A stretch of DNA of 64,000 bases, taken from NCBI GenBank assembly GCA_937997485.1, contig CALKTH010000036.1:1-64000 (forward strand). The letters run 5' to 3'. Below the pieces are notes generated by a model. It had not been told where the DNA came from. It did not search any database and saw only the letters and a program-made list of their open reading frames with translations. Both the position numbers and the translations under genes were made by a program. Source of the DNA: an uncultured Acidimicrobiales bacterium (GTDB lineage: Bacteria; Actinomycetota; Acidimicrobiia; Acidimicrobiales; SZUA-35). Below are positions 1,071 through 62,198 of this stretch, in pieces (position 1 is the first letter of the stretch; every line of letters starts with the position of its first letter).

Positions 1071-1094
1071 CCACCATTCCCCCTGGCCGCCCTC

Positions 1095-1115
1095 CTGTGG
1101 GTGCCTGACCCTCAC
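1095..1115 (-). repeat. GGGTCAGGCACCCACAG interspersed repeat, single copy
   Basis: Read on the minus strand, this gap contains GGGTCAGGCACCCACAG preceded by GTGA. The same word occurs at 15801-15861 (two copies) and 56729-56745. It sits between a plus-strand stop (1070) and a minus-strand stop (1129). The core has GGGT/ACCC arms, so it may form a small hairpin in transcripts. Confidence 0.7.
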
Positions 1116-1128
1116 CATCACACACCTC

Positions 1129-6597: not shown

Positions 6598-8439
6598 TCA
6601 GACGGGGAGCGTGTTTGTCACCGTGATGAACTCAGGGGACTCGCTGAAGCCCACCATCATCTCACCCCGAGTCACACCAGCAGAAAGCTGACCGATCCAG
6701 AAGTCGCGCCCTCCGGCATCAGCGGCTCGGCCCAGCACGTTCTGGTAGACCAGCTCGACGAACTCCGCGTCGGAGAGGCTTCCGTAGGTCGCGGTGAACT
6801 CCGCAGAGCCAGCAAAGCTGTTCGAGACGTCAGCCAGACTCGTGCGGTTGGCCAAACGGGCATACCAGAAGTCAAACCCGCCCTGATCAGCGTTCCGACC
6901 GAAGTAAGCGCGGTAGAGCCGCCAAAGCTGATGGGCAGAGGCCGGCGATGCAGCGGTCGTGCTCGTCGCATCCACGAGCTCGGGAGACTCGCTGAAGCCA
7001 ACCATCATCTCGCCCCGAGTCACACCGCCAGCAAGCTGCGCTGTCCAGAAGGCTCGGCCTCCCGCGTCGGCAGGGCGGCCGAACACGTTCTGGTACACCA
7101 GCTCCACGAACTCAGCATCGGACAAGCTGCCATACGTGTCGCTGAACTCGTCGGACGCAACGAACCCGTTCGCCAGATCGACAAGTGAGGCGCCAGCGGC
7201 CCGTCGCATCATCCAAAACTGGAGACCATCGGCGTCTGGTGGCCGCAGGAAGAAGGCCCGGTAGATCCGCGTGACTTGACCTTCGAGCTGCTTGCCTGCG
7301 AGATCGGCCACCGCAACCGGGTCCGGCACCACGTCTGGCTCTGGCTCGGGTTCCGGTTCGGCTTCAGGCCCCGGCTCCTGGGACGCGTCAATGGAAAGGA
7401 CCTGGTACTCGATGCCCGAATCGTCACCCTTGCGGCCGATCACTACGACCTCGGACCCGTCGTCTGAAGCCGCAAGGCTGTTCAGGCCGGTGCCGAGGCG
7501 ATCAAAGCTGCCGTCGGCTGGTCGCCAGCGATAGAGGTCGACGAAGTTGTCGTCGTCGGCCGGATCGAGGCCGTCGATCGTCGAGAAGAACACGGCACCA
7601 CCGTTCGCCGACATCGTCACGCCCTCCGGCCCATTGCGATTCACCTCCGACGGAGTTGGCGCGACACGGTCCGTGCCCGACTGGAGATTGTGAACCGCAA
7701 CTCCGGTCGCCGCTCCGTTGCCTGGCTCGAAGAACATCGAGGCCACAAGGTTCCCATCGTCGGACACGGCAACGAAGCTGCCCGGAATCTCTTGCTCGAC
7801 GTCGTTTGCGAGTTCCCAGCGAGTCGCTCCGGCATCAGCCTTCACATAGAAGATGAACCGTCCGTCGCCCGAGACAAGCGGAACGGGTCCTGACAGAGCA
7901 GCTCGCTCGACAACAGTGTTCGACGACGCCTGCCAAACATGCACCGTGACATCGCCGGTGTTTCGAGGATTGTCGCGCCACACGACCACCGAGCCGTCGT
8001 CGGAAATCGAGGCATGGTTCGAGGTGTTCGAAGTCGTCGCAAGGCGGCGGGAGGTGCCCGACGTGCGGTCCCAAAGGAAGACGTCAAAGGAGCCGTCGTC
8101 GAACTTCGAGAACGCAACCCAGCGCCCGTCGTCGGAGATGGCAGCATTGAAGCCATTGCTATCGATCAGGGTCGAGGCCCCGCCCGACGCTCGTTGCAGG
8201 CGAATACCTCCATCGTTCGGGACGTTGTAGACCACCCAAGCGCCGTCGCCCGAGATCGTTGCCGGCTGAAAACCGAACTCTGCGTCGTCAATCGACGTCA
8301 CATCCGGAGTGAGCTGAGCGAGCGGGTGAGGCACAGCGCCCGAGACAGGAGCGGCCATTGAGGCAAGCAAGATCGCCGTGGCACCGGCCCCGGCAATCCG
8401 TTTCCATCGCTGCGAACTTGGAGAGGGAATATTGTTCAT
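6598..8439 (-). CDS. Secreted PD40-like beta-propeller protein with C-terminal DUF4214 repeats
   Basis: A 613-residue protein. The ATG at 8439 (MNNIPSP) is preferred over 8505 because it places a signal peptide (basic residues, then AILLASMAAPVSGA) at the N-terminus. Residues of about 50-360 contain repeated blades such as ISDDGRWVAFSK, ISDDGSVVVW and VSGDGRFIFY, typical of a TolB/PD40-like propeller. A PEPEPEPDVVPDP linker leads to two 116-residue DUF4214 units (RIYRAFF, then FVELVYQNV, GGRAFW and GEMMVGFSESPE). DUF4214 occurs in bacterial surface and S-layer-associated proteins. Probably an exported cell-surface or extracellular protein; ligand unknown. Confidence 0.82.
   Translation of the reverse strand: MNNIPSPSSQRWKRIAGAGATAILLASMAAPVSGAVPHPLAQLTPDVTSIDDAEFGFQPATISGDGAWVVYNVPNDGGIRLQRASGGASTLIDSNGFNAAISDDGRWVAFSKFDDGSFDVFLWDRTSGTSRRLATTSNTSNHASISDDGSVVVWRDNPRNTGDVTVHVWQASSNTVVERAALSGPVPLVSGDGRFIFYVKADAGATRWELANDVEQEIPGSFVAVSDDGNLVASMFFEPGNGAATGVAVHNLQSGTDRVAPTPSEVNRNGPEGVTMSANGGAVFFSTIDGLDPADDDNFVDLYRWRPADGSFDRLGTGLNSLAASDDGSEVVVIGRKGDDSGIEYQVLSIDASQEPGPEAEPEPEPEPDVVPDPVAVADLAGKQLEGQVTRIYRAFFLRPPDADGLQFWMMRRAAGASLVDLANGFVASDEFSDTYGSLSDAEFVELVYQNVFGRPADAGGRAFWTAQLAGGVTRGEMMVGFSESPELVDATSTTAASPASAHQLWRLYRAYFGRNADQGGFDFWYARLANRTSLADVSNSFAGSAEFTATYGSLSDAEFVELVYQNVLGRAADAGGRDFWIGQLSAGVTRGEMMVGFSESPEFITVTNTLPV
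6638..7148 (-). repeat. Internal DNA duplication encoding the DUF4214 units
   Basis: The word GACTCGCTGAAGCC starts at 6638 and again at 6986, an offset of 348 nt or 116 codons. Long stretches after each copy remain clearly similar at the nucleotide level, including the block encoding GSLSDAEFVELVYQNV in both units. This indicates a fairly recent in-frame duplication within the gene. Confidence 0.8.
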
Positions 8440-8532
8440 CGTGCGAGAAGAACACACTTGAACAAGCTTGTGGTGCACCCCCTTGATCCCAAGCTTTCGC
8501 GACATCTCACGCTGAGGGCCGAGTCCGGGCAG

Positions 8533-8572
8533 CTCAGCTGACGTTCGGCGCTGCTGACCTCAGCTGACGTTC
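8533..8572. repeat. 14-bp direct repeat spanning the SDR stop codon
   Basis: CTCAGCTGACGTTC occurs at 8533-8546 and 8559-8572, a 26-nt period. On the minus strand the upstream copy encodes the last residues and TGA of the SDR gene; the other copy lies directly downstream of that stop. It looks like a local tandem duplication with partial decay. Confidence 0.75.
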
Positions 8573-9333
8573 CAGCCGCCGCTCAGCGAGAAGAACTGGC
8601 CTGTTTGGAAGCGCGACGTGCCATCGAGAAGCGCGGCGCAGAAGTGTGCGACTTCTTCAGGTTGTCCAAGACGCTTCATCGGCACTCTTGATTCGTATCG
8701 AGAGCGCACGGCAGGATCGTCCGAGCCTGTTGCGGCTCGGAAGTTCGGGTAGTCAAGGAAGTTCGTACCGATGGCGTTGAGCGTGACACCCGAGTCGGCA
8801 ACTGAGAGTGCCGTGGAACGAATGAGCATGTTCGCCGCGGCCCGAGTTGCGCTGTAGAGCGGTGCTCCCGGAGCTGGCTTCTCACCGGTCGCACTCGTCA
8901 CAATGACCACCTGCCCTGACCCGGCCTCGAGCATCGGAGGCAGCACCGCTTGAATGACGTGCAAGACCGACTCGAGGTTGTCAGCGACCTGGCTTCGCAA
9001 TTGCTCCGTCGTCGCCTCGAGGACGGGGCCTGCCATGATCGTGCCGGTTCGAACACACGCAGCATCGATCCGACCGAAGCGCTGCAGGGCAGCTTCGACC
9101 AGGGTGGCGATCGAGGTCGGCTCGGAGAGATCAGCCACTCCGTCAACGGCGAGGACGGATGCCCCGGTCGCTTCCAGGTTCTCGATGAGGCCGTCAGCTG
9201 GTTGTCCGACCACGAGGTCGTGATCCCGCCGAGCCAGCTCCAGTGCCAAGTCGGGTCCAAGATGCATATTGGTATCGGTGACGAGAGCGACACGGCGCAT
9301 TCCACGACCTCCGATGTCTGAGTCCGTGCTCAT
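8560..9333 (-). CDS. Short-chain dehydrogenase/reductase (SDR) family oxidoreductase
   Basis: A 257-residue Rossmann-fold protein starting at the ATG at 9333, whose ATGA overlaps the upstream gene's stop. The C-terminal glycine-rich segment (LDGTSRFQTGQFFSLSGGWNVS) and VTSATGEKPAPGAPLYSATRAA are typical SDR, with the YxxxK site present as YSATR, so the usual Lys is replaced by Arg. The N-terminal nucleotide motif is also degenerate (VTDTNMHLGPDLA rather than TGxxxGxG). Activity is therefore uncertain. Last gene of a three-gene operon behind an acyl-CoA synthetase. Confidence 0.8.
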   Translation of the reverse strand: MSTDSDIGGRGMRRVALVTDTNMHLGPDLALELARRDHDLVVGQPADGLIENLEATGASVLAVDGVADLSEPTSIATLVEAALQRFGRIDAACVRTGTIMAGPVLEATTEQLRSQVADNLESVLHVIQAVLPPMLEAGSGQVVIVTSATGEKPAPGAPLYSATRAAANMLIRSTALSVADSGVTLNAIGTNFLDYPNFRAATGSDDPAVRSRYESRVPMKRLGQPEEVAHFCAALLDGTSRFQTGQFFSLSGGWNVS

Positions 9334-15396: not shown

Positions 15397-15807
15397 ATGA
15401 TCTTCGGCGCTCCAGAGCCAGAACCACCGGCACCGCTCGACGCGAAGGAAGCGATCGAGCGACGAGAGGATCAGAAGCGCAAGGGCCTGGCGGTTCTGGC
15501 GGCCTTCGCCGTGGGTGTCATCTTGGTCGCGCTCTGGGTCGTGCTCGCATCACCAGGAGACGGCGCAGCCGAGCGACAGCGGGCGATCACGGAGGATCTC
15601 TCCGAGCTGGGCATCGAAGCGAACTTCGTTTCGTTGGAGAACGGGATTCGCATCGGCGACCAGTTCCGCGTCTTTGACGACTGCGGTGGCAGTCGACTGG
15701 TGCTGTTCAACCGCATCAGCGACGAGTTGCTCATTGCCCGATGGAACGGCAACGAGGCGGAAGTCAACGTCGAGTCGGCGCCCCGCCTCACCGAGTGCGC
15801 CCAGTGA
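15397..15807 (+). CDS. Hypothetical single-pass membrane protein
   Basis: A 136-residue protein with a Pro- and charge-rich N-terminus (about 30 residues), one transmembrane segment (LAVLAAFAVGVILVALWVVLA) and an approximately 80-residue exported or periplasm-like domain with two cysteines (DDCGGSR and LTECAQ) that could pair. I do not recognise a family. Its TGA lies inside the first copy of a tandem 30-bp repeat. The next gene is convergent. Confidence 0.65.
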   Translation: MIFGAPEPEPPAPLDAKEAIERREDQKRKGLAVLAAFAVGVILVALWVVLASPGDGAAERQRAITEDLSELGIEANFVSLENGIRIGDQFRVFDDCGGSRLVLFNRISDELLIARWNGNEAEVNVESAPRLTECAQ

Positions 15808-15861
15808 CGGTGAGGGTCAGGCACCCACAGCCAAGTGACGGTGAGGGTCAGGCACCCACAG
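15801..15861. repeat. Tandem pair of the GGGTCAGGCACCCACAG repeat at a gene end
   Basis: Two near-identical 30/31-bp units (15801-15830 and 15831-15861) each contain AGTGACGG followed by the GGGTCAGGCACCCACAG core. The first copy includes the stop codon of the upstream plus-strand gene, and the block ends 9 nt before the stop of the convergent histidine phosphatase gene. Single core copies occur at 1095-1115 and 56729-56745. Confidence 0.85.
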
Positions 15862-15870
15862 CGAGAGGGG

Positions 15871-16467
15871 CTAGTGGAGGATGAGCTCGGGGGTGGGGCG
15901 GAGGTGTCCGATGTCGTTGAGGCTCACGATCGAGCGTTCGCCGGACGACGCCACCATGGAGCGGTTGATACTCGTGTAGTGGGGATTGAAGAACATCGAG
16001 TTCTCGATGCCAAGGACATCGGCCGACCACGCATTGATGACACCACCGTGGCACACCACGGCAACGCGCTTGCCCCGATTGTCAGCCGCAATCTTGGTCA
16101 TCGCTTCCAGAACTTCGGCCTCGAACTCGGCGCGGGGCGAGTTCATTTGATCGGCAAGGAAGGCCTTCCATCGTTCCTTGTCGGCCTTCAGCTCTTCGAC
16201 CGGGATGTACTCGGCTTCCTCGGCATCGAACTCTCGAATGCCAGCCACCACGATCGGATCCAGGCCCAGGAGCTGCTCCAGAGGGGCGGACGTCTCCCTC
16301 GCTCGCACCATCGGACTCACGTAGATCGAGTCGATCCGTTCCGCCTTCAACCACTCAGCAGCAGCAACCGCCTGACGATGACCGGCCTCGGTCAGCGGCG
16401 GATCCGCCGGCCCCTCGGCGTTCTCCACTCGTTCGGGTCGTCCGTGCCTGACCATGATCAGCTCCAT
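15871..16467 (-). CDS. Histidine phosphatase family protein (phosphoglycerate mutase-like)
   Basis: A 198-residue branch-1 histidine phosphatase. The nucleophile motif is IMVRHGRPE at residues 4-12, VSPMVRARETSAPL carries the second conserved Arg, and VAVVCHGGVINAW has the second catalytic His. These enzymes form a phospho-histidine intermediate on diverse phosphorylated metabolites, and the true substrate is not visible. The start is 26 nt from the divergent pyruvate kinase GTG, so the two share a very short promoter region. Confidence 0.86.
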   Translation of the reverse strand: MELIMVRHGRPERVENAEGPADPPLTEAGHRQAVAAAEWLKAERIDSIYVSPMVRARETSAPLEQLLGLDPIVVAGIREFDAEEAEYIPVEELKADKERWKAFLADQMNSPRAEFEAEVLEAMTKIAADNRGKRVAVVCHGGVINAWSADVLGIENSMFFNPHYTSINRSMVASSGERSIVSLNDIGHLRPTPELILH

Positions 16468-36867: not shown

Positions 36868-38340
36868 GTGTCACTGGCTCAGTCCCTCCGACGTTGGATT
36901 CCGCCCGTCGTTTTGGCGGGAGTTGCCTTCGGCACATGGCAGGCAGCCAAGGCGGCAGACAGCGACAACGTCAGCGTCGACCGAGTCGAGCACGCGGCCG
37001 AGCTCGGCACCGCGCTTCTGTCCCCGCGTCGCATCCCGGAGACGTTGCAAGCCCCGGTGGCTGACGACGCCATCCAGCCAGCCATCGAGGCGTTCGTCCA
37101 ACGTCTGGGTGACAATCCCAGCTGCCTCGTGATCGAGGTCGACGGCCGAGTCTTGGCTGATGTCGGGTCGAATGTTGGTCTGATTCCTGCGTCAAACCAG
37201 AAGCTGCTCACCACGTTCGTGGCCTTGCGTCAGTTCGGGCCAGAGCATCGCTTCACGACTCGTGTGCTGGCCGACGGCACGACAACAGACGGTGTGCTCG
37301 AGGGGGACCTGTACTTCGTCGGCGGCGGTGATCCGTTCCTCACCACAGCTGAATGGCGAGCCCAGTACGACGTCCGGGATGAGGAGGACAACCTGATTCC
37401 TCCGGCATACCCGCGAAACTTCTCCTCCCTCGAGTCCCTGGCCGACGAGATCGCCGCGACAGGCATCACGCAGATCACCGGGAGCGTCGTGGGCGATGAA
37501 GCGCTGTTCGACAGTGAACGGCAGGGCCCGTGGGCGGGTCGGTTGATTGCCCAGAACCAGTCCGGACCCCTGTCGGCGCTCGCAGTAAATGAAGGGTTCG
37601 CGAGCTGGGGCCAAACGCCCCGAGCCGGTGATCGGATCAAGTCAGAGAATCCGCCGCTCCAAGCAGCGGACGAACTGGCTCGCCTGCTGTCCGAGCGAGG
37701 AATTGCCGTAGGGGGCACAACGAGCGGCACGGCGCCGCCGTCAGCCTCAGAGATCGCCGCAATCGAGTCCGCCACCATGCTGCAGCTCATCACCGACGTG
37801 AACAGCTACTCGAGCAACTACGGGGCTGAGGTACTGCTGAAGCACATCGGTGTCGCTGGCGGCCAGGCTGGAAGCACCAGCGGAGGAGCGGCCGCCATGA
37901 TCGCCGCACTGGATGCAACCCCGGGCCTGTCGACCGAGGGCCTCAAGATCCTCGACGGATCCGGCCTCTCAGAACAGAATCTGATGACCTGCGACTTCCT
38001 GAACGACCTGCTGCTCGCGGCCGGACCGAACTCCGACTTCGTTCGCAGTCTCTCCATCGGTGGCGAACGCGGATCGCTTGCTGGCCGCCACGTCGACACC
38101 TCCGTCGATGGGAACCTCTTCGCCAAAACGGGCACGTTGAATTCAGCGACGGCCCTCAGCGGGGTGTTGGAGTCTCCGCTCGACCCGGATGTCGACCTGT
38201 CGTTCAGCTACATCTCGAATGCCGAGCTCATCGCTCGTGAGCTCCCCGGCCTGCAAGAACCCTTCATCGAACAACTGGCGACATATCCGGATGCGCCATC
38301 GATCGACGATCTCGACCCCCTGCCGCCGTCGTCCTCATGA
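36868..38340 (+). CDS. dacB: D-alanyl-D-alanine carboxypeptidase/endopeptidase (PBP4, DacB-like)
   Basis: A 490-residue peptidase family S13 penicillin-binding protein. A GTG start is followed by a signal/anchor (IPPVVLAGVAFGTWQAAKAAD). Active-site motifs in order: SNQKLLTT (SxxK, around residue 110), SSNYGAEVLLK (SxN) and FAKTGTLNSA (KTG). It trims the terminal D-Ala or cleaves peptidoglycan cross-links outside the membrane. Its stop overlaps the Lon-N gene by 4 nt (ATGA). Confidence 0.9.
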   Translation: MSLAQSLRRWIPPVVLAGVAFGTWQAAKAADSDNVSVDRVEHAAELGTALLSPRRIPETLQAPVADDAIQPAIEAFVQRLGDNPSCLVIEVDGRVLADVGSNVGLIPASNQKLLTTFVALRQFGPEHRFTTRVLADGTTTDGVLEGDLYFVGGGDPFLTTAEWRAQYDVRDEEDNLIPPAYPRNFSSLESLADEIAATGITQITGSVVGDEALFDSERQGPWAGRLIAQNQSGPLSALAVNEGFASWGQTPRAGDRIKSENPPLQAADELARLLSERGIAVGGTTSGTAPPSASEIAAIESATMLQLITDVNSYSSNYGAEVLLKHIGVAGGQAGSTSGGAAAMIAALDATPGLSTEGLKILDGSGLSEQNLMTCDFLNDLLLAAGPNSDFVRSLSIGGERGSLAGRHVDTSVDGNLFAKTGTLNSATALSGVLESPLDPDVDLSFSYISNAELIARELPGLQEPFIEQLATYPDAPSIDDLDPLPPSSS

Positions 38341-38948
38341 CGATCCTTCCGCTCTTTCCCCTGGGGTCGCCGCTGCTACCGGCCATGGTCCTCCCGCTTC
38401 ACCTCTTCGAGGAGCGTTATCGCCAGCTCATCGCCGACGTCATGAACGGCGGAGAAGAATTCGGCGTCGTGCTCATCGAGAAGGGCTTCGAGGTCGGCGG
38501 TGACGATGTCCGAGCCGGTGTGGGAACGGTTGCCAGAGTGCTTGAAGCTGAAGAGTTCGATGACGGCCGATGGTTCATTGTCACGGTCGGCACCCGTCGC
38601 TTCCGGGTCGTGAACTGGCTCGAAGACGATCCGTACCCGCGAGCAGAGGTCGAGGATTGGCCGGACGAGCCGCTGCACATCGACTTGACCGAGCAGGTCG
38701 GTGAGGTCATCAAGACCTTCACTCGCTGCATGGGTCTGGCCGCCGAGGCGGGCTACGACGTCGGCCAAGTGCCAGAGATCAGCCCTGATCCCGAGATAGG
38801 CGTCACGCAACTGGCCGCGCTTGCGCCGGTGAACGCTCACGATCGTCATCAGTTTCTTTGTGCGCCAGGGCCGCCGGAACGCCTGGATCTCATCGCCTCG
38901 TCGCTGGAAGCAGCCGTTGATCGCTTCCGATTCGAATTGACCGACTAG
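38337..38948 (+). CDS. Stand-alone Lon substrate-binding (LAN) domain protein
   Basis: A 203-residue protein consisting only of the Lon N-terminal domain. LFPLGSPLLPAMVLPLHLFEERYRQLIADVM is the family opening, with EFGVVLIEKGFEVGG and GTVARVLEAEEFDDGRWFIVTVGTRRFRVV following. There is no AAA+ or protease domain, so it cannot be a protease by itself; such proteins occur widely and may bind substrates or act as adaptors. It is coupled to dacB. A 17-bp direct repeat spans its stop codon. Confidence 0.88.
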   Translation: MTILPLFPLGSPLLPAMVLPLHLFEERYRQLIADVMNGGEEFGVVLIEKGFEVGGDDVRAGVGTVARVLEAEEFDDGRWFIVTVGTRRFRVVNWLEDDPYPRAEVEDWPDEPLHIDLTEQVGEVIKTFTRCMGLAAEAGYDVGQVPEISPDPEIGVTQLAALAPVNAHDRHQFLCAPGPPERLDLIASSLEAAVDRFRFELTD

Positions 38949-38967
38949 CGTCCGATTCGAATTGACC
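38926..38967. repeat. 17-bp direct repeat spanning the Lon-N gene stop codon
   Basis: TCCGATTCGAATTGACC occurs at 38926-38942 and again at 38951-38967, a 25-nt period. The first copy encodes the protein's C-terminus, the stop TAG falls at 38946-38948, and the second copy is untranslated. Confidence 0.8.
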
Positions 38968-56689: not shown

Positions 56690-56728
56690 CGCGGTCGTCC
56701 CCCAAGACCACGAAAACGCTGGTGTTGG

Positions 56729-56745
56729 GGGTCAGGCACCCACAG
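56729..56745 (+). repeat. GGGTCAGGCACCCACAG interspersed repeat, single copy
   Basis: The 17-nt word matches the cores at 1095-1115 and 15801-15861 exactly. It lies 40 nt after the yceI stop, in the gap before the convergent LLM gene. The rest of the gap (56746-56903) has repetitive purine-rich sequence but nothing I can name. Confidence 0.7.
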
Positions 56746-56903
56746 AAGCAGGTGGCCTCAGGGGTTCAGGGACGCAGTCCCGACGGGGTTCGAGGGGCAG
56801 AGCCACAAACAGCCCGAGCGTCAGCGAGGCCCACCAGGAACTCGGGTGAGTGCGCGGAGGGCTCCGAGGAACGAGGAGCCCGAGCACACGAACCCGAAGA
56901 GAC

Positions 56904-60996: not shown

Positions 60997-62181
60997 GTGT
61001 CAGGATCACTCGCAACGCCGGGAGAGCAGATACCTCCGTTCCACGTGATGGAAGTCATGCGAGCAGCCGCGGAGCGAGAGGCTGCAGGCCTGGATGTCCT
61101 CCACCTCGAGGTGGGGCAGCCGTCGACCGCAGCACCAGCCTCGGTGAGGAGGGCGGCCAAGGCGGCGCTCGACGAGGATGTGCTTGGCTACACCGGCGCG
61201 CTTGGGCTCCCGGCGCTACGCCAGCGCATCAGCCAGCACTATCTCGACACCTACGGCGTTGCTGTCGACCCGAGGCGGGTCGTGGTGACCACAGGGGCAA
61301 GCGGCAGTTGCGTCCTTGCTTTTCTGGCCATGTTTCGCCCCGGCGACAGAGTGGCCGTGATTGAGCCCGGCTACCCGTGCTACCGCAACGATCTCATGGC
61401 CTTCGGCATCGACGCGGTGCCCGTTCCCGTCGGTCCCGCCGAACAGTACCGACCCTCGGCCGCGTCCCTTGAGGCCGCCCGTCTCGAACACGGCGAACTT
61501 GCGGGACTGATTCTGGCCAGCCCCTCGAACCCGACCGGCACGGTCTTGTCGGCCGGTGACCTCGACGAACTGCTGGCGTGGTCAGAGACGCACGGAGTGC
61601 GAGTCATTGTCGATGAGATCTACCACGGCATCACCTACGGCCAAGCTGCGCCGACCGCTCTGGCACGCTCGACGAGCGCTGACGTGTCGGTTTTTGGATC
61701 GTTCAGCAAGTACTGGTCCATGACCGGATGGCGCCTCGGCTGGATCGTTGCCCCGGACAGTCGTATCACCAGCCTGGAACGCTTGGCGCAGAACCTCACG
61801 ATCTCAGCACCAACGCTCTCACAGCTGGCCGGCATCGCCGCGTTCGACGCAGCAGCAGCTTGCGAAGAGAATCGAGCTCGCTATGAGCGGAACCGCGCCA
61901 TTCTTCTCGACGGACTTCCCGCCGCTGGACTCGGTCAGATGGCACCCGCCGACGGAGCGTTCTACATCTGGTCCGATGTGTCAGACCTGCTCACGAACCA
62001 ACTCCCAACGAGCCAAGCGCTGTGTACCCATTGGCTCGACTCGCTCGGAATCGCCGTCACCCCCGGCATCGACTTCGACCCACAGCGCGGCGACCGCTTC
62101 GTTCGGTTCTCGTACGCGGGGTCGGAAGACACCATGCGAGAGGCCGTCCGCCGCCTCACCACGTGGTCGGCGCAACGATGA
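60997..62181 (+). CDS. Class I/II pyridoxal-phosphate aminotransferase
   Basis: A 394-residue PLP enzyme. LEVGQPSTAAPASVRRAAKAALDEDVLGYTGALGLPALRQRI opens the fold, VVVTTGASGSCVLAFLAMF contains the substrate region, LASPSNPTGTVLSAGDL is the conserved NPTG, and VFGSFSKYWSMTGWRLGW carries the Schiff-base Lys. The amino donor/acceptor pair is unknown. GTG start. The TGA lies within a 16-bp repeat that also forms the start region of the next gene. Confidence 0.9.
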   Translation: MSGSLATPGEQIPPFHVMEVMRAAAEREAAGLDVLHLEVGQPSTAAPASVRRAAKAALDEDVLGYTGALGLPALRQRISQHYLDTYGVAVDPRRVVVTTGASGSCVLAFLAMFRPGDRVAVIEPGYPCYRNDLMAFGIDAVPVPVGPAEQYRPSAASLEAARLEHGELAGLILASPSNPTGTVLSAGDLDELLAWSETHGVRVIVDEIYHGITYGQAAPTALARSTSADVSVFGSFSKYWSMTGWRLGWIVAPDSRITSLERLAQNLTISAPTLSQLAGIAAFDAAAACEENRARYERNRAILLDGLPAAGLGQMAPADGAFYIWSDVSDLLTNQLPTSQALCTHWLDSLGIAVTPGIDFDPQRGDRFVRFSYAGSEDTMREAVRRLTTWSAQR

Positions 62182-62198
62182 CGTCGGCGCAACGATGA
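62166..62198. repeat. 16-bp tandem repeat joining the aminotransferase stop to the DUF983 start
   Basis: GTCGGCGCAACGATGA occurs at 62166-62181 and 62183-62198, a 17-nt period. The first copy carries the TGA stop of the aminotransferase (62179-62181); the second carries the ATG at 62195 used by the DUF983 gene. The duplication has apparently built a stop and a start from the same word. Confidence 0.85.

Follow-up and report, generated by a model that had tools for sequence, protein, structure and literature searches.

Short direct repeats at four gene ends of an uncultured Acidimicrobiales bacterium: three local duplications and a REP-like doublet

Genes and repeats in the window

The window, a 64-kb stretch from the genome of an uncultured Acidimicrobiales bacterium, contains four genes with short direct repeats at their 3' ends (Table 1). 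These are an SDR gene on the minus strand (site 1), a gene for a protein that lacks a Pfam match (site 2), the gene for a protein with the LON substrate-binding domain (site 3), and a class I/II aminotransferase gene (site 4), which is followed by a gene whose product shows weak, below-cut-off similarity to DUF983. An earlier note had reported repeats at these four gene ends, and all four are present. The exact coordinates are recovered at sites 1, 3, and 4, whereas the repeat ascribed to a small membrane protein (site 2) has slightly different boundaries (Table 1) and a period that is exactly 31 and not "about 30."

Table 1. Genes, repeats, and REP-terminated genes (coordinates without a prefix refer to the window; an asterisk marks the stop)
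Feature	Position	Strand	Details
Site 1, 14-bp exact direct duplication	8533..8572	-	Period 26, 12-nt gap
SDR gene (adh_short_C2, PF13561)	8560..9300	-	Native C-terminus ...SGGWNVS*
136-aa gene	15397..15807	+	No Pfam match; C-terminal end in REP tag
Site 2, REP-like doublet	15803..15862	+	29 bp exact, period 31
Histidine phosphatase gene (PF00300)	15871..16467	-	Convergent with 136-aa gene across REP doublet
LON substrate-binding domain protein (Lon-N, PF02190)	38337..38948	+	Native C-terminus ...FRFELTD*
Site 3, 17-bp duplication	38926..38967	+	Period 25, 8-nt gap
Aminotransferase class I/II (PF00155)	60997..62181	+	
Site 4, 16-bp duplication	62166..62198	+	Period 17
Next gene, 171 aa	62195..62710	+	Weak DUF983 similarity, below cut-off
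Gene ending in REP copy, L061	C33:16455-18848	+	Tail VGA*
Gene ending in REP copy, L070	C46:96714-97376	+	Tail VGA*
Gene ending in REP copy, L107	C9:16874-18229	+	Tail VGA*
Gene ending in REP copy, L099	C93:53401-53964	-	Tail VGA*

At site 1, the word CTCAGCTGACGTTC occurs at 8533 and 8559, and the SDR stop codon (8560-8562) lies within the gene-side copy (8559-8572), with the second copy at 8533-8546. The 29-bp word of site 2 starts at 15803 and again at 15834, after a gap of 2 nt, and the TGA stop (15805-15807) is part of copy 1. Site 3 consists of two copies of TCCGATTCGAATTGACC, at 38926 and 38951; here the TAG stop (38946-38948) falls in the gap between them, so that the stop codon itself has not been copied. 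At site 4, GTCGGCGCAACGATGA is found at 62166 and 62183, separated by a single nucleotide, with the aminotransferase TGA (62179-62181) in copy 1 and an ATG at 62195 in copy 2. The copied word thus contains the TGA stop at sites 1, 2, and 4 but not the stop of site 3.

In Markov-resampled sequence, repeats of at least 14 bp with a period of 8 to 80 arise, anywhere, at a rate of 1.2 per 1.55 Mb, or about 0.05 per 64 kb, which identifies sites 1 to 4 as real duplications, beyond the chance level. They do not represent a single phenomenon: three are unrelated duplications, and the fourth is a REP-like pair. Exact copies of the words of sites 1, 3, and 4 occur nowhere else in the 2.25 Mb of the genome that were searched. 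No Rfam RNA families were detected in the 64-kb window at the gathering threshold.

Downstream of the SDR gene, the minus strand encodes a DUF4214 protein (8358-8505 region). Its start is probably located upstream of the called position 8358, and a signal-peptide-like segment, MNNIPSPSSQRWKRIAGAGATAILLASMAAPVSGA, is found in frame ahead of that position.

A REP-like family at site 2

Site 2 is a doublet of a dispersed REP-like repeat and not a product of local slippage. In the 4.86-Mb genome, its unit, GTGACGGTGAGGGTCAGGCACCCACAG, is matched 72 times when at most 3 mismatches are allowed, and the reversed control has no matches. A relaxed pattern for the family gives 80 matches in the source genome and background numbers in 60 relatives, including a genome of the same genus. 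The 2.25 Mb read include 48 copies with an exact core, most of them (43) intergenic and the remaining 5 overlapping a stop codon; the density of REP pairs is highest in convergent gaps, lower in tandem gaps, and lowest in divergent ones. The family has a conserved GTGA tag, and the TGA in the tag of the first site 2 unit serves as the stop codon of the upstream gene. The stem is imperfect, with predicted energies of -8.6 kcal/mol (as RNA) and approximately -5.3 (as DNA) for the consensus and -5.7 for the site 2 unit. Homologs of the 136-aa gene were sought in 60 relatives to see if the REP had created its stop codon, and none were found there.

The window contains two more solitary GTGA REP copies, at 1093-1122 (minus strand) and 56718-56747 (plus strand), both in 3' convergent positions. 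Elsewhere in the genome, the ends of four unrelated genes lie within REP copies (Table 1); their products share the REP-encoded C-terminal tail VGA*, and in every case the REP provides the TGA stop in the same phase.

The only match to the Y1_Tnp domain (PF01797) in the genome, at C80:24221-24553 (locus L304), lies between REP copies of opposite orientation. Of the 39 genomes of the family, 10 carry PF01797 genes, and the same-genus genome has none. We infer that the repeat is probably mobilized by a RAYT-type transposase. The analysis thus sets apart, in an uncultured actinobacterium, a family of REP-like repeats and the likely RAYT transposase that accompanies it.

Placement of short duplications and ends of the affected genes

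The source genome is a fragmented assembly of 158 contigs with 92.8% completeness. The survey of short duplications covered 2,246,095 bases (46% of the 4.86-Mb genome) and 2062 genes, predicted with our own gene caller; it required an exact match of at least 14 and a period of 8 to 80, with the REPs set aside. Within genes, this 2.25 Mb contains 63 duplications, 62 of which have a period divisible by three, indicating that frame-breaking duplications are purged. In a control that pooled 69 loci of other genomes, all 36 in-gene repeats have periods divisible by three, and a single stop-spanning repeat is found in 436 genes, too few for a rate.

The 36 non-interior duplications include 25 intergenic, 7 stop-spanning, 1 start/stop, and 1 start-only cases, as well as 2 at edges. 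Random placement on non-interior positions would give 18.9 intergenic, 6.9 stop, 2.6 start/stop, and 7.2 start cases. The scan of stop codons that the earlier note had called for shows no enrichment over other non-interior positions in the 2.25 Mb (8 observed versus 9.5 expected), an outcome that the note had listed as a refutation; duplications are more frequent at stops than in gene interiors or at start codons, though not more frequent than at other frame-tolerant positions. Start codons are depleted (2 observed versus 9.8 expected; Poisson P=0.003), and the density of duplications per kb falls from 0.49 in convergent gaps to 0.17 in tandem and 0.07 in divergent ones. This gradient and the depletion of start codons are what tolerance predicts, with 3' flanks free and 5' flanks and coding interiors constrained. 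There is also a local excess: 3 of the 7 stop-spanning cases are found among the 61 genes of the window, where about 0.2 would be expected. We can attribute it only to the flagging of the window for such repeats.

The SDR protein is co-terminal with its closest homolog, in locus L292 (...SGGWDAS*), and with a paralog from the same genome (L301), both of which lack a second copy downstream of the SDR end. The length of the Lon-N protein equals that of its counterparts in loci L290, L266, L267, and L263 to within a few residues. None of the SDR and Lon-N homologs shown has the extra copy; the nearest genome in this comparison comes from a different species of the same genus, and DNA similarity over these genes is weak. 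Judging from these protein ends, the gene-side copy preserves the native termini of the SDR and Lon-N genes.

At site 4, the tetranucleotide ATGA at 62178-62181 closes the aminotransferase gene, and another ATGA, 13 nt farther on (62195-62198), opens the next gene, whose likely start is the ATG in the second copy. The proposal that the copied word supplies the start codon of the next gene is therefore borne out, to the extent that this start is correct. Relatives of both genes in locus L183 are joined by a single-copy 4-nt ATGA overlap, and locus L219 has the junction CAACGATGAAC, also in single copy. Most likely, a 17-bp duplication split an ancestral ATGA stop/start overlap, as suggested by these relatives, which are about 60% identical in protein. 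Such -4 overlaps are found in 232 of the 1299 tandem gene pairs of the source genome.

Sites 1, 3, and 4 are independent short tandem duplications, probably products of replication slippage or template switching. Duplications that span a stop codon should be almost invisible to selection, which would explain why these were retained: the gene-side copy would preserve the native C terminus and the stop, and the second copy, in any phase, would come to lie in noncoding 3' DNA. Many of the noncoding repeats abut or overlap, as slippage gives, and others, including sites 1 and 3, are gapped. With gaps of 12 nt (site 1) and 8 nt (site 3), these two are not perfect head-to-tail repeats, and simple slippage needs an extra step to account for them; this points to a template switch or to partial loss after duplication.

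Taken together, sites 1, 3, and 4 are very probably ordinary duplications tolerated at stop codons, and site 2 is a separate REP-like doublet that belongs to a family likewise concentrated in 3' flanks. Slippage tolerated near gene 3' ends, one of two explanations offered in the earlier note, remains the best reading for these three sites and does not extend to site 2. The stop-spanning duplications described here are ordinary: the apparent gene-end pattern arises from mutation that occurs everywhere, combined with a reading-frame filter.

Other explanations and comparison with known systems

The ATG at 62178 opens a 6-codon mini-ORF, MTSAQR*, which ends at 62198, so that its TGA overlaps the ATG of the next gene. 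This exact geometry could mean that selection favored the duplication at site 4 as a relay for termination and reinitiation. More generally, duplicated stop/start overlaps might make selected relay mini-ORFs, in which ribosomes would restart at the first ATGA, translate a few codons, and end on the TGA at the next start; the genes would then stay translationally coupled despite a gap that would otherwise uncouple them. A second duplicated overlap is found at C5:59196-59224 (locus L078), where GTGA is repeated with a period of 14 and the short ORF VKVAS* lies between two genes. In addition, the 2.25 Mb contain 97 tandem pairs, separated by 1 to 60 nt, in which the upstream stop overlaps a start codon; 22 of these have the same geometry, with a mini-ORF that begins on that start codon and ends in an exact 4-nt overlap with the start of the next gene, compared to 37 of 352 other pairs read in the same frame (P=0.003). 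However, this test was post hoc and rests on called starts, the excess weakens at 1 to 120 nt (P=0.06), and a small pool of other genomes does not show it (4 of 21 versus 10 of 63). Selection for a relay is accordingly improbable, both for the site 4 duplication and for duplicated overlaps in general.

An equally doubtful source of the duplications is the repair of staggered double-strand breaks by fill-in and Ku-dependent end joining, with the 8- to 12-nt gaps as filler. Exact copies with unrelated nucleotides between them at sites 1 and 3 would fit this mechanism, as would the gapped cases among the other noncoding repeats, but many such repeats abut or overlap in the manner of slippage products. 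Moreover, Ku (PF02735) has no match in the 92.8%-complete source genome, a result that lowers the probability of fill-in and end joining.

It is still less likely that a single mobile element left all four repeats as its footprints or that they are target-site duplications remaining after excision. Such an origin could be considered because the dispersed repeats to which site 2 belongs are accompanied by a Y1 transposase. However, the copies differ in length (14, 29, 17, and 16) and in gap size (12, 2, 8, and 1), and the four words have no sequence in common, in agreement with the earlier note, which had already concluded that the repeats are not one element. Neither a shared terminal motif nor an intact element was seen in the homolog loci compared. 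Target-site duplications are not known to result from HUH Y1 transposases. A single element behind all four sites is rejected, as the words of sites 1, 3, and 4 are unique in the 2.25 Mb.

The least credible reading, also raised in the earlier note, is that the copies serve as a backup stop region for ribosomes that read through the first stop. The copied word does contain TGA at three sites, and at site 2 another in-frame stop follows one codon later. However, none of the periods (26, 31, 25, and 17) is a multiple of 3, so that any copied stop is in a different frame, and at site 3 the copied word lacks the stop; in-frame stops next occur 653 codons downstream at site 1, 135 at site 3, and 149 at site 4; the early second stop of site 2 comes from the TGA CGG TGA inside a single REP unit; and of 12 stop-spanning repeats genome-wide, just 4 contain an in-frame stop. 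The reading frames refute it at sites 1, 3, and 4, and a false lead is thereby removed. In eubacteria, selection for additional stop codons has not been found (Ho and Hurst, PMC6764699).

As ordinary tolerated duplications, sites 1, 3, and 4 and the other duplications of the survey share with the products of slippage and template switching the exact short copies, the in-gene periods divisible by three, and the free phase outside genes. They differ in nothing of substance, except that 8 to 12 nt separate the copies at sites 1 and 3. The likely ancestral junction at site 4 resembles the 4-nt ATGA overlaps with translational coupling (PMC10666635), whereas its present form, after the duplication, has the two genes separated by 13 nt.

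The family of site 2 has much in common with the REP/RAYT systems (Nunvar et al. 2010, PMC2817692; PMC3733652). It consists of short repeats with a putative, imperfect hairpin, is present in some 70 to 80 copies, is lineage specific, and is mostly extragenic, in 3' flanks or convergent gaps; its copies flank the Y1 transposase gene in inverted orientation, which is the organization of RAYT genes (PMC2817692, PMC3733652). In contrast to the known tags, GTAG and CGTC, it carries GTGA, and it is therefore not filed in the GTAG or CGTC REP superfamilies. Its doublets are mostly head-to-tail, whereas those in the cited paper are mostly inverted dimers. In Escherichia coli, REPs located within 15 nt of a stop codon lower translation, as reported in PMC12306157. 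The site 2 REP similarly overlaps a stop codon but differs from the E. coli stop-proximal REPs in that it supplies the stop codon itself.
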